64,000 bases of DNA from positions 1-64,000 of the forward strand of contig NZ_JAEQMY010000021.1 of assembly GCF_016743775.1 (NCBI RefSeq). The letters are read 5' to 3'. Both the position numbers and the translations under genes were made by a program. Below are positions 8,334 to 11,660 of this stretch, in pieces (position 1 is the first letter of the stretch; each line of letters opens with the position of its first letter). Origin of the DNA: Microvirga aerilata. Its GTDB lineage: Bacteria; Pseudomonadota; Alphaproteobacteria; Rhizobiales; Beijerinckiaceae. The notes beneath the pieces are model-generated. The model saw only the letters and a list, made by a program, of their open reading frames with translations, had not been told where the DNA came from and searched no databases.

Positions 8334-9596
8334 ATGAGCTCACCCAACCGCTCGACGCATATCCGGCTCACCTCGCACCCCGAGCCCAACGCAGGCACCA
8401 TCAAGCATCCAGTCAAGTGGGGCGCCTCGGACCCGAAGGAGCGCGGCCCGATCATCGGCACCGTCACCACCCCGGCCGACCGCAACGTGATCGGCGCCCA
8501 TGGCGGCTCCTACTCGCTCTACAGGGCGCTCGCCATCTCGGCCCGGGCCATGAACCCGCTGGCGCGTCCCGATCTTCACAACACGCACCCCACCGCCGAG
8601 GTTGGCCCGCATCCGCAATGGTTCGAGCCGGGCAAGATCGTGTCCCTCGACCCCTGGGGCCATATGGCGGGCCAGGTCTTCCAGGACGACATCGCAGGCG
8701 GCATTGATGTGCGGCCCAGCATCGCCATCACCAAGGCGCGCCTCAACATGCCGGAGATCCTGTCCGCCATGGGGGCAAGCCGCCTCAAGGCCGACGGCGG
8801 CTTCCTGCACGAATCCGGCGACATCTCGGTGACCAAGATCGCGGTCGATCCCGTGTGGTACCTGCCGGGCATCGCCGAGCGCTTCGGCTGCTCCGAGGGC
8901 GAGCTGCGCCGCACCCTGTTCGAGCAGACCGGCGGCATGTTCCCGGAGCTCGTCACCCGCCCGGACATGAGCGTCTTCCTGCCGCCCATCGGCAACATCA
9001 CGGTCTATGTGGTGGGCGACGTGTCGCGCCTGAGCGATCCTAAGACCCGCATCGCCTGCCGGGTTCACGACGAATGCAACGGCTCCGACGTGTTCGGCTC
9101 CGACATCTGCACCTGCCGCCCCTATCTGGTGCACGGCATCGAGGAATGCGTACGGGAAGCTCAAGGGGGCGGCGTGGGCGTCATCGCCTATAACCGCAAG
9201 GAAGGCCGGGCGCTCGGCGAGGTCACCAAGTTCCTGGTCTACAATGCCCGCAAGCGGCAGGAGGGCGGCGATCAGGCCTCCACCTATTTCGAGCGCACGG
9301 AATGCGTGGCCGGCGTGCAGGATGCGCGCTTCCAGCAGCTCATGCCCGATGTGCTGCACTGGCTCGGCATCCGCCGCATCGACCGGCTCATGTCCATGTC
9401 CAACATGAAGTACGACGCCATCACCGGCTCCGGCATCGAGGTGGTGGAGCGCGTACCGATCCCGGCCGAACTGGTGCCGCCGGACGCGCAGGTGGAGATC
9501 GAGGCCAAGAAGGCCGCCGGCTACTATACACCCGAGGGAGCGCCAGATCCGTCCGCGCTCGAGCAGGTGAAGGGCCGCGATCTGGAGCGCTTTTGA
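8334..9596 (+). CDS. GTP cyclohydrolase II-like protein, URC1 type (predicted uracil/UMP catabolism)
   Basis: A 420-residue member of the GTP cyclohydrolase II superfamily with an extra N-terminal domain (about residues 1-220, GTP_CH_N type) that riboflavin RibA lacks. In the C-terminal half the zinc cysteines (HDEC248, C259-T-C261) and the catalytic R288-K-E-G-R292 are kept. The RibA motif LLTNNPxK is replaced by LMSMSNMKYDAI, and the segment after the RKEGR motif is longer. This form matches yeast URC1, which acts on UMP-derived substrate in uracil breakdown. The following genes, DUF1688 (URC4-like) and upp (URC6-like), complete the same trio. I therefore do not call it riboflavin ribA. The ATG at 8334 has GGAAG seven bases upstream; a TTG one codon earlier is the alternative. 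Confidence 0.85.
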   Translation: MSSPNRSTHIRLTSHPEPNAGTIKHPVKWGASDPKERGPIIGTVTTPADRNVIGAHGGSYSLYRALAISARAMNPLARPDLHNTHPTAEVGPHPQWFEPGKIVSLDPWGHMAGQVFQDDIAGGIDVRPSIAITKARLNMPEILSAMGASRLKADGGFLHESGDISVTKIAVDPVWYLPGIAERFGCSEGELRRTLFEQTGGMFPELVTRPDMSVFLPPIGNITVYVVGDVSRLSDPKTRIACRVHDECNGSDVFGSDICTCRPYLVHGIEECVREAQGGGVGVIAYNRKEGRALGEVTKFLVYNARKRQEGGDQASTYFERTECVAGVQDARFQQLMPDVLHWLGIRRIDRLMSMSNMKYDAITGSGIEVVERVPIPAELVPPDAQVEIEAKKAAGYYTPEGAPDPSALEQVKGRDLERF

Positions 9597-9740
9597 ACCA
9601 TCGGAAGGTGAAGCGGGTGCCGGTTTGCCGCCGGCATCCGCTTCGTTTTTAACCTTGTCGCCAAACGGCCTCGCCTGGAGATACTGGGCTGCCCAAAGAC
9701 TGTGCTATCGCGTCTCCCCCGGAGAGCATCGGAGCCTTGC

Positions 9741-10994
9741 GTGACCGACCAGCCTGACCTGTCTTCTGAAACCGAAGCCGCCCGAAACCTTCTGTCTGCC
9801 GCCGCCGTGCGCGAGCGGTCACATCAATTGCTGCAGGCTGGCCTCGATGGCCGCCTCCAGCATTTCACGGTCGATCTCGCTCGCCTGGAGGCCTGCGCCG
9901 ACGAGGTCGTGGCCACGATCCGACAGGCCTATCCGTCCCTCGACATACCCTTCCATGCCCGCTGGCGGCATTTCTCGGCCGGCGGCCATGACCGCTGGGA
10001 CGCGGTCATGCACGGCGCGCCCTGGCAGGACGCCTCCGAGATGGCGCGCTCGGCCTTCGATCTCGCCATCGTGTCCGTGCTGCTCGATGCGGGCGCGGGT
10101 GCGCAGTGGCGCTACGAGGAAGGCCGCACGGGCGAAACCTATATCCGCTCCGAGGGTCTGGCGGTGGCAAGCTTCGACATGTTCGTGAGCGGCGCCTTCT
10201 CCAGCCGGCCGGAAGACCCGTTCCGGGTCGATGCGGATGTGCTGATGACCCTCACGCCTGAGGATCTGGCCTCGGGCTTCCAGGTATCCCCGAACAACCC
10301 GCTCGTCGGGCTCGAAGGCCGCGCCGCGCTCCTCAACCGCCTCGGGCGCGTGATCGCCACGAACCCGGACATCTTCGGCCAGCATGACGATTCCCGTCCC
10401 GGCGGGCTCTACGATGTGATCACCGCCACCGCCGAGAACGGCGCCGTCAAGGCGACCGCGATCCTGGAGGCCCTGCTCACCCATCTCGGCCCCATCTGGC
10501 CGGGCCGGATCACCCTGGGCGGCGTCGATCTCGGCGACACCTGGCGTCACCCGCTCGTGGAGGCGCCGGATGCCACCAAGGGGCTCGTGCCCTTCCACAA
10601 GCTGTCCCAGTGGCTGTCGTACTCGCTGATCGAGCCCATCGAATGGGCGGGCTGCAACGTCATCGAGATCGACGGCCTCACGGGCCTGCCCGAGTACCGC
10701 AACGGCGGTCTTTTCCTGGACACCGGCGTGATCGCCCTGAAAGACCCTGCGGATGCCTCCCGCGCGCATGCGGTGGATTCGCAGCTTGTCGTGGAGTGGC
10801 GCGCCTTGACGGTTGCCCTTCTCGACCGCATTGCCGATCCGATCCGCGCGAAGCTAGGATTCGCCGCGGAGGACTTCCCCCTGGCCAAGGCGCTCGAAGG
10901 CGGCACCTGGGCCACAGGGCGGAGATTGGCGAAGGAGAAGCGCGGCGACGGCTCGCCTCCTCTGAGCGTGATTAGTGACGGGACGGTGTTTTAG
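9741..10994 (+). CDS. DUF1688 family protein, URC4 type (predicted uracil catabolism)
   Basis: A 417-residue cytoplasmic protein of the DUF1688 family; the yeast member URC4 is genetically required for uracil breakdown, but its reaction is not established to my knowledge. No signal peptide or membrane helix is visible. Conserved-looking blocks include HARWRHFSAGG (about residues 74-84), WRYEEGRTG, FSSRPEDPFRVDADVL, and LVPFHKLSQWLSYSLIEP. The density of Trp, His, Arg and Asp in these blocks would fit an enzyme. I chose the GTG at 9741, which has GGAG at 9731-9734; a GTG at 9702 gives 13 more residues but a poor site. The gene lies 144 bases after the URC1-like gene and its stop is close to upp. 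Confidence 0.85.
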   Translation: MTDQPDLSSETEAARNLLSAAAVRERSHQLLQAGLDGRLQHFTVDLARLEACADEVVATIRQAYPSLDIPFHARWRHFSAGGHDRWDAVMHGAPWQDASEMARSAFDLAIVSVLLDAGAGAQWRYEEGRTGETYIRSEGLAVASFDMFVSGAFSSRPEDPFRVDADVLMTLTPEDLASGFQVSPNNPLVGLEGRAALLNRLGRVIATNPDIFGQHDDSRPGGLYDVITATAENGAVKATAILEALLTHLGPIWPGRITLGGVDLGDTWRHPLVEAPDATKGLVPFHKLSQWLSYSLIEPIEWAGCNVIEIDGLTGLPEYRNGGLFLDTGVIALKDPADASRAHAVDSQLVVEWRALTVALLDRIADPIRAKLGFAAEDFPLAKALEGGTWATGRRLAKEKRGDGSPPLSVISDGTVF

Positions 10995-11030
10995 ATGAAT
11001 CAGCAGACGACAATCCAAAAGGGGACAGGC

Positions 11031-11660
11031 ATGCAGGGCGTCACGGTGGTCGATCATCCGCTGGTTCAGCACAAGCTGACCCTGATGCGGGACAAGGAGC
11101 GCTCCACGAAGGGCTTCCGCCAGCTCCTCAACGAGATCGGCATGCTGCTGTGCTACGAGGTCACCCGCGACCTGCCCATGGAGCGCATCCAGATCGAGAC
11201 GCCGCTCACCACCATGGAAGGCGCGCAGATCGCCGGCAAGAAGCTGGTCCTGGCCCCGATCCTGCGCGCCGGCGTCGGCTTTCTCGACGGCATGCTCACC
11301 CTGGTTCCCGCAGCCCGCGTGGCCCATATCGGCCTCTACCGCGATCCGGAATCGCTCCAGGCCGTTGAGTACTACTTCAAGGCGCCGTCGGATCTCGCCG
11401 ACCGGATGGTGCTGGTGCTCGACCCCATGCTCGCCACGGCCAACTCGGCGGTTGCGGCCATCGACCGGCTGAAGGAGCGCGGCGCCAAGGACCTGCGCTT
11501 CGTCTGCCTGCTGGCAGCGCCCGAGGGCATCGAGAAGCTGCGCGGCGCGCACCCTGATGTGCATATCTGGACCGCCTCCATCGACGATCGCCTCAACGAC
11601 CACGGCTATATCGAGCCGGGCCTGGGGGATGCGGGCGACCGGATGTACGGAACGCGCTGA
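11031..11660 (+). CDS. upp: Uracil phosphoribosyltransferase
   Basis: Upp joins uracil and PRPP to give UMP and pyrophosphate. The 209-residue product has the usual length when started at the ATG at 11031, which has an AGGGGA seven bases upstream; an ATG at 10995, next to the DUF1688 stop, would add 12 residues. Motifs seen are [13 protein letters not shown] at the N-terminus, [13 protein letters not shown], the PRPP loop [14 protein letters not shown], and the C-terminal [11 protein letters not shown]. In yeast the same enzyme is URC6, the first step of the URC pathway, so here it probably feeds the two upstream proteins as well as salvage. Confidence 0.96.

Follow-up and report, generated by a model that had tools for sequence, protein, structure and literature searches.

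Among the routes of uracil breakdown, the URC pathway has received little study; it is defined as independent of dihydropyrimidine dehydrogenase. It was reportedly described by Andersen in 2008 in the yeast Lachancea (Saccharomyces) kluyveri, with the genes URC1, URC4 and URC6. A eukaryotic counterpart is the uracil-induced urg1–urg2–urg3 cluster of S. pombe, in which genes of the GTP cyclohydrolase II (GCHII), uracil phosphoribosyltransferase (UPRT) and DUF1688 families lie together; the 2008 passage on it (PMC2174524) links urg1 to a riboflavin-type family and gives it no breakdown role, and a passage of PMC3869809 terms urg1 and urg3 orthologues of URC1 and URC4. Conservation of URC1 and URC4 across many bacteria has been reported. 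The bacterial URC gene set is already known as a locus type, and the trio described here, from the soil bacterium Microvirga aerilata, is a further example of it, with the same three families as those that act on uracil in L. kluyveri.

The trio occupies positions 8334–11660, all on the plus strand, of the 64,000-nt stretch of DNA that was analysed (the window). It comprises a URC1 orthologue and predicted UTP cyclohydrolase with GTP_CH_N and GCHII domains (8334–9596; the open reading frame spans 8331–9596, with an in-frame ATG at 8334), a DUF1688 protein corresponding to URC4 (9702–10994; Pfam PF07958, E 3.7e-151, covering profile positions 2–420 of 420) and a UPRT corresponding to URC6 (10995–11660; Pfam PF14681, 269.7 bits on TIGR01091 with a cut-off of 208.35, and also above the NF001097 cut-off). 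All three URC members are therefore present in one cluster, and their identification as URC1, URC4 and URC6, proposed in an earlier sequence-only reading, was borne out by Pfam, NCBIfam and PDB matches. Upstream lies the phosphopentomutase gene deoB (6909–8129, plus strand; 457.3 bits on TIGR01696, above cut-off), and downstream of the UPRT gene a DGOK-family (2-keto-3-deoxygalactonokinase-like) sugar-acid kinase gene (11709–12611, plus strand; PF05035, E 6e-79). Intergenic gaps measure 204 bp between deoB and URC1, 105 bp between URC1 and DUF1688, 0 bp between DUF1688 and UPRT and 48 bp between UPRT and the kinase gene. On the minus strand, facing the trio, are genes for thymidine/pyrimidine-nucleoside phosphorylase (deoA, 16280–17602; 671.8 bits on TIGR02643, above cut-off), deoxyribose-phosphate aldolase (deoC, 17604–18380; above the TIGR00126 cut-off) and purine nucleoside phosphorylase (18358–19179; above the TIGR01698 cut-off), followed by a cytidine deaminase domain and a nucleoside-type ABC importer (19225–24734; Pfam). 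The deaminase domain (19225–19800) forms the 3′ part of an open reading frame at 19225–20469, and the importer genes encode two BPD_transp_2 permeases, an ATPase and a Bmp-type binding protein, as found by a Pfam scan of all of this region but the open reading frame at 21642–22172. Family matches thus confirmed that the trio follows deoB and faces an operon for nucleoside uptake and cleavage.

We surveyed 290 alphaproteobacterial genomes and a set of 67 loci. Linkage counts rest on tblastn, because ORF picking favoured antisense ORFs in GC-rich loci. DUF1688 was found in 28/290 genomes (hereafter carriers), and GTP_CH_N (URC1) in the same 28 genomes plus one divergent match (G230, 120 bits). 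The order URC1–DUF1688–UPRT held in 28/28 carriers, contiguous in 26 and broken at contig ends in two; among the 27 carriers other than M. aerilata, single-strand order was complete in 25, while in one the start of a contig truncates URC1 and in another the trio lies across two contig ends. Because DUF1688 and URC1 coincide in all carriers and adjoin physically, the arrangement is far beyond chance. Six of the 67 loci are without URC1 (L035, L037, L049, L052, L067 and L068); true loss was rejected, as the gene lies elsewhere in all six genomes. The deoB neighbourhood of the trio is lineage-specific: deoB occurs somewhere in the locus in 38/67 loci, mostly from Microvirga and in a few kilobases away, and was absent beside the trio from the stretches fetched from the other survey genomes (0/27). 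A DGOK-family gene is likewise present somewhere in the locus in 38/67 loci. Scans of other neighbours covered hand-picked loci only, so no frequency is given for transporter, hydrolase or methylmalonate/malonate-semialdehyde dehydrogenase (MMSDH) genes adjacent to the trio. Most of the neighbours scanned had no evident connection with uracil.

The Pyd and Rut pathways share the overall task of uracil breakdown, and the sequence-only reading had predicted a route distinct from both, with the three families expected to occur together in genomes without pyd or rut genes. In the M. aerilata genome, neither PydA nor RutA was found above family cut-offs, the best match to NF006183 (PydA) having an E value of 1.7e-5, below the 335-bit cut-off. 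Across the survey, PydA was above cut-off in 0/28 carriers versus 59/262 other genomes (p=0.002) and, with genomes smaller than 2.4 Mb left out, in 0/28 versus 57/155 (p=1.2e-5), so that the alphaproteobacterial trio was confined to genomes without detected PydA. RutA, in contrast, was commoner in carriers (4/28, M. aerilata not among them) than in other genomes (3/262). The prediction thus stands for M. aerilata itself and, in the 290 genomes, for the co-occurrence of the three families and the absence of PydA, but not for RutA.

The URC1 protein contains GTP_CH_N (PF12471, E 2.1e-79) and GTP_cyclohydro2 (PF00925, E 4e-17) domains, scores 758.8 bits on NF005536 (NCBIfam) and matches PDB entries 7eev and 7ej3 (Zhang 2021 ACS Catal) over nearly its full length (E 3.3e-184, 65% identity), with no difference found between the two enzymes. 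Both entries are titled UTP cyclohydrolase and carry the molecule name GTP cyclohydrolase II; the former name also appears in the reference list of PMC12507026. Because a protein 65% identical to it was deposited under this title, URC1 probably acts on UTP and not on UMP, the substrate that had been put forward earlier. Direct action on UMP or uridine, with no part for UTP and with DUF1688 working on unphosphorylated ribosylurea, would agree with UMP being the product of UPRT and with a passage of PMC7530994 that writes the intermediate as ribosylurea and lets URC1 and URC6 act jointly on uracil. We consider it unlikely, however, since the orthologue was deposited, and in that reference list cited, as UTP cyclohydrolase, and since Qng1, the fold match of DUF1688, binds a 5′-monophosphate in 7u91 and 7ulc according to the entry titles. 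The predicted URC1 model was poor (pLDDT 55.8) and was used solely for reading PDB titles and identity; its structural matches agree with the sequence search.

Cys249, Cys260, Cys262, Tyr304, Asp331 and Arg333 of URC1 are invariant in 20/20 aligned sequences, M. aerilata included, and presumably have the zinc-binding and catalytic roles of their E. coli RibA equivalents. Retention of such GCHII-type residues would also be expected of a riboflavin GTP cyclohydrolase II, in which case the trio would be no breakdown route and its UPRT would serve ordinary salvage; GTP cyclohydrolase II is indeed the name given by NF005536 and by the molecule records of 7eev and 7ej3, and RibA exceeds the TIGR00505 cut-off in only 13/28 carriers. 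Yet URC1 itself reaches just 52.7 and 54.7 bits on TIGR00505 against a cut-off of 205.85, is 65% identical to the entry titled UTP cyclohydrolase and is strictly linked with DUF1688. A RibA-like gene scoring 190.5 bits, slightly under the cut-off, lies elsewhere in the M. aerilata genome (C338:130310–130825) and makes a riboflavin role for URC1 unnecessary. We rejected that role as extremely improbable, and the NF005536 label "GTP cyclohydrolase II" is probably misleading in the annotation of URC1 proteins.

The DUF1688 protein gave a confident AlphaFold2 model (pLDDT 90.5). The top 11 Foldseek matches of this predicted model were all Qng1/DUF2419 proteins, the best with E 3.2e-10 and TM scores of 0.59 (query) and 0.77 (target); only Qng1 structures fell below E 1, the next match having E 1.1, and weak matches to the DNA glycosylases TAG and Mag2 followed (E 1.2 and 4). 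Qng1 is a queuosine-5′-monophosphate N-glycosidase (PDB 7u07, 7u91, 7ulc, 7u5a) that resembles DUF1688 in fold but is only about 16% identical to it and about 100 residues shorter. The two families have parallel motifs, FxK..Q, [DE]Y[KR], VExRAxT and [DE]xxxW (10/28 have Q in the final motif). Lys300 and Glu331 of DUF1688 are invariant and appear to line up with two residues mutated in Qng1 crystals: the equivalent of Lys300 in locus L061, Lys283, falls on position 154 of the Q_salvage profile, which is Qng1 Lys199 if no gap intervenes, and E331-Y-R, with Glu for Asp, can be matched to Qng1 D231-Y-K through the motif and in an hhalign alignment that is not significant. The counterpart of Qng1 Asp298 varies between Glu and Gln.

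Profile searches were in part consistent with this relation. Q_salvage (PF10343) matched 11/32 aligned DUF1688 relatives at E<=1 (best E 1.3e-4; the scores shown, 12.1 to 19.8 bits, lie under the Pfam cut-off of 25 bits), and any other foreign family matched at most 2/32, AlkA_N being found in 2/32. The M. aerilata protein had no match to the Pfam Q_salvage profile, nor had 7/10 diverse DUF1688 members; two of the three matches among these ten were confined to the N-terminal half and did not reach the K/E motifs. Alignment of DUF1688 with two short Qng1 fragments by hhalign was not significant (Prob 3.2; URC1 control, 1.9), and phmmer and hmmsearch against PDB sequences returned nothing at E<=10. 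Q_salvage was found in 0 of 150 genomes of the phylum, an uninformative count because 14 controls likewise gave 0, and a Qng1 motif pattern had 0 matches in viral contigs.

A passage of PMC7530994 states that URC4 degrades ribosylurea to urea and there names neither enzyme class nor mechanism. Because of this published link and the Qng1 fold match, the most likely function of DUF1688 is that of a phosphoribosylurea N-glycosidase, which would yield urea and ribose-5-phosphate, the expected leaving group being urea where that of Qng1 is queuine. We think it likely that DUF1688 and Qng1 form one nucleotide N-glycosidase superfamily, with DUF1688 cleaving N-(5-phosphoribosyl)urea by means of Lys300 and Glu331 in place of Qng1 Lys199 and Asp231. 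If true, this would fill a gap in the reaction chemistry of the URC pathway, bacterial and fungal alike; a chemistry that the sequence-only reading had called not established can now be predicted from the fold model, and a concrete reaction, substrate and two mutable residues make the step directly testable. The same Qng1 fold, the weak TAG and Mag2 matches and the AlkA_N matches could also point to a queuosine-type nucleotide hydrolase or a DNA-repair-like glycosylase that does not cleave ribosylurea, but URC1 accompanies DUF1688 in every case, both in the 28 survey carriers and in the genomes of the six unlinked loci, and genes of the same three families form a uracil-induced cluster in S. 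pombe (passage of PMC2174524), which makes such a function highly improbable.

Together, these results lead us to hold with good confidence that the trio is the bacterial URC pathway, in which UPRT would convert uracil and PRPP into UMP and cellular kinases would raise UMP to UTP. URC1, as a GCHII-fold zinc enzyme, would then hydrolyse the uracil ring of UTP twice and release a C3 unit, 3-oxopropionate (malonate semialdehyde), possibly also freeing pyrophosphate by analogy with GCHII and leaving N-(5-phosphoribosyl)urea, which the Qng1-like N-glycosidase DUF1688 would split into urea and ribose-5-phosphate. The latter could return to PRPP or enter the pentose pool, and deoB would join it with ribose-1-phosphate from the nucleoside phosphorylases. 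M. aerilata could use urease to break down the urea and MMSDH to oxidise the C3 unit. The scheme builds on the observed genes, their linkage and co-occurrence and the fold of the DUF1688 model, on passages of the literature for URC genetics and ribosylurea, and on titles alone for UTP as substrate; we infer how the intermediate is phosphorylated, that DUF1688 acts as an N-glycosidase through the residues named, and what becomes of the C3 unit.

The M. aerilata genome carries genes for both urease (alpha) and MMSDH. Yeast uses a urea amidolyase (URC3/5) according to a passage of PMC7530994, whereas urea carboxylase (TIGR02712) was found in 0/28 carriers at E<=1e-200, and M. aerilata has urease alpha instead. 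Urease, at E<=1e-100, was present in 18/28 carriers, including M. aerilata (17 above cut-off), and neither enzyme in 10/28 at these thresholds, which are strict and may have let damaged or divergent genes escape. Nitrogen release through the trio is therefore not guaranteed. Of the complete use of pyrimidine nucleosides, ring included, that had been predicted for this locus, the presence of the trio and of the nucleoside operon genes stands, but not an assured release of nitrogen. Enrichment of urease was dropped as support, since it vanishes when the comparison is limited to genomes of 2.4 Mb or more (18/28 carriers versus 85/155 others, p=0.41).

Carriers with neither enzyme might instead suggest that the main role of the pathway is to recover ribose and C3 carbon or to dispose of excess UTP, urea being excreted and not used as a nitrogen source; MMSDH, which could oxidise the C3 unit, would suit such a role, but the presence of urease in most carriers leaves it a rather doubtful alternative to the use of urea nitrogen. 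A large downstream ORF in L061 was rejected as an MMSDH candidate, being a PutA-type proline protein. MMSDH was found in 10/11 carriers examined (11 of the 28), and, whereas yeast forms 3-hydroxypropionate according to a passage of PMC7530994, two bacterial loci (L064 and L065 only) have MMSDH just upstream of URC1.

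The window carries, on its forward strand, genes for a URC1 orthologue (8334-9596), a DUF1688 protein corresponding to URC4 (9702-10994) and a uracil phosphoribosyltransferase (UPRT, URC6; 10995-11660), with deoB upstream (6909-8129). The facing gene group, on the reverse strand from 16280, comprises deoA, deoC and genes for a purine nucleoside phosphorylase, a cytidine deaminase domain and a nucleoside-type ABC importer. These gene identities, their order and their strands confirm the trio at 8334-11660 and the neighbours described in the sequence-only reading. The genome (6.83 Mb in 382 contigs, the window lying on C133 in our survey naming) is that of a Microvirga, and the closest relatives of the locus among those found are likewise from Microvirga (DUF1688 identity 72–90%). 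The trio is a genuine and unremarkable representative of a pathway already known, if sparsely studied; the same cluster occurs in S. pombe, where it is induced by uracil, according to an excerpt of PMC2174524. Directly after UPRT lies a DGOK-family sugar-acid kinase gene (11709-12611, forward strand). Such a kinase is also found near UPRT in two Enterovirga loci lacking URC1 (L035:11954-12847 and L037:13133-14026), and somewhere in the locus in 38 of 67 loci collected through DUF1688.

In a class-wide sample of 290 alphaproteobacterial genomes, each at least 95% complete, DUF1688 was found in 28. The URC1-specific GTP_CH_N domain was present in the same 28 carriers, at 264 bits or more in each, and in one further genome, G230, in which DUF1688 was not found. 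The G230 match scored 120 bits, above the Pfam cut-off, with 35% identity to the window's URC1, and is possibly a different cyclohydrolase; the relative lies at L117:6224-7387, with the domain inside a 692-aa open frame. By tblastn, the order URC1–DUF1688–UPRT was kept on one strand in the 27 other carriers (25 complete sets; in one more, URC1 is truncated where the contig begins, and the last set is divided between two contig ends). Of the 67 DUF1688-found loci, 61 contained URC1 and 60 contained UPRT, which in L056 is on the opposite strand, and all six loci without URC1 had it elsewhere in the genome. In one of these, a Lactamase_B_3 (metallo-beta-lactamase-fold) hydrolase gene directly precedes DUF1688 (L037:9156-9965); related genes stand immediately ahead of DUF1688 in L052 and some 3 kb ahead of it in L068.

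The expectation that the trio would occur without pyd or rut genes held for Pyd and failed for Rut. Counting only matches above cut-off, PreA/PydA (NF006183) was present in 59 of the 290 genomes and in none of the 28 carriers (Fisher p=0.002 against the other genomes); when only genomes no smaller than the smallest carrier (2.4 Mb) were compared, the counts were 0/28 and 57/155 (p=1.2e-5), both p values ignoring relatedness among genomes. RutA (TIGR03612) went in the opposite direction, with 4/28 carriers against 3/262 others (p=0.002), and URC and Rut are thus not mutually exclusive. Two uracil routes may coexist in the four RutA-bearing carriers (G068, G070, G206 and G266, of which G070 has four copies above cut-off). 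The window's own genome has neither PydA nor RutA above these cut-offs.

The C-terminal half of URC1 is GTP cyclohydrolase II (GCHII)-like, scoring 54.7 bits with the RibA model against a cut-off of 205.85. A separate gene in the same genome reaches 190.5 bits, slightly below that cut-off, and 13 of the 28 carriers have a RibA above it. Six URC1 residues (Cys249, Cys260, Cys262, Tyr304, Asp331 and Arg333), unchanged in 20/20 aligned sequences, we take to be counterparts of the GCHII zinc ligands and catalytic residues, judging from alignment to the PDB match and from what is known of E. coli RibA. The GCHII reaction splits pyrophosphate and a one-carbon unit off GTP; an analogous reaction of URC1 on UTP would release pyrophosphate and a three-carbon unit, with N-(5-phosphoribosyl)urea as the remaining product. 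The window's URC1 shares 65% identity with PDB 7eev/7ej3; the molecule in these entries is named GTP cyclohydrolase II, and the entry titles read "Structure of UTP cyclohydrolase" and "UTP cyclohydrolase". Because of these titles, the GTP cyclohydrolase II name that the NCBIfam equivalog NF005536 gives to 8334-9596 is likely an annotation error.

For DUF1688, which Pfam still labels a family of unknown function, AlphaFold2 gave a confident model from 28 aligned sequences (pLDDT 90.5, pTM 0.88). A search of this model against 350,542 PDB chains returned 11 matches below E 0.001, all of them Qng1/DUF2419, an enzyme of queuine salvage whose structure was determined with queuosine-5'-monophosphate; the best had E 3.2e-10, TM scores of 0.77 (by target) and 0.59 (by query), and 16% identity, and the next match had E 1.1. 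Independently of the fold match, Pfam Q_salvage was matched at E<=1 by 11 of 32 diverse DUF1688 proteins (best 1.3e-4, the scores shown all being below the Pfam cut-off), and each other foreign family by at most two of the 32. Q_salvage did not match the window's own DUF1688 protein, nor 7 of 10 diverse members in another scan.

The Qng1 sequence, retrieved with a short probe, places K199, the residue altered in 7u5a, within FYKRAQ, and D231, the one altered in 7ulc, within FADYKVPQ; by position these are at Q_salvage profile positions 154 and 186. The L061 DUF1688 protein aligns with the profile from its Val279 at position 150, so that, if five positions are gapless, its Lys283 (K300 of the window's protein, in PFHKLSQW) falls on K199. 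LPEYRNGG (E331) matches ADYK (D231) by motif, hhalign being collinear and non-significant. Farther along, VEWRALT parallels Qng1 VEIRAAT, and LEGGTW parallels VDWLLW, the site of D298 and W302, which an excerpt of PMC11592518 gives as active-site residues. By these parallels, K199, D231, D298 and W302 of Qng1 would correspond in DUF1688 to K300, E331, E or Q at position 399, and W403. K300, E331, Y332, R333, R367 and W403 are invariant in both alignments (28/28 and 32/32).

URC4 is called a putative ribosyl-urea degrading enzyme in an excerpt of PMC8709784, and an N-glycosidase of the Qng1 type with a 5'-monophosphate as substrate fits that step. The most likely DUF1688 reaction would be N-(5-phosphoribosyl)urea + H2O -> urea + ribose-5-phosphate, a specific, testable prediction that is the useful addition here. 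In the open-access literature we met no statement that ties DUF1688 to DUF2419/Qng1, and among the papers listed in a joint search none mentioned DUF1688 alongside DUF2419, QNG1 or queuosine salvage; with subscription papers outside the search, this is weak evidence that the link is new. Ribose-5-phosphate could be used to regenerate the PRPP that UPRT needs, and deoB would connect it with the ribose-1-phosphate that the facing group's phosphorylases release; the deoB neighbourhood is not general (0/27 other survey carriers). Urease alpha (E<=1e-100) is present in 18/28 carriers, including the window's genome and G057, whose copy is partial and below cut-off; when genomes under 2.4 Mb are set aside, it is not commoner in carriers than in the rest (p=0.41). 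Urea carboxylase (E<=1e-200) was found in 0/28, and ten carriers (G016, G063, G073, G085, G132, G164, G202, G204, G229 and G274) have neither; the urea amidolyase used by yeast was therefore not found in these bacteria, and some carriers may gain no urea nitrogen.

A gene for a CoA-acylating (methyl)malonate-semialdehyde dehydrogenase (TIGR01722, above cut-off) lies just upstream of URC1 in two loci (L064:7161-8630 and L065:1116-2612), which fits malonate semialdehyde as the three-carbon product. This enzyme was present somewhere in 10 of 11 carriers examined, but it is a common one: 5 of 14 control genomes also had it above cut-off.
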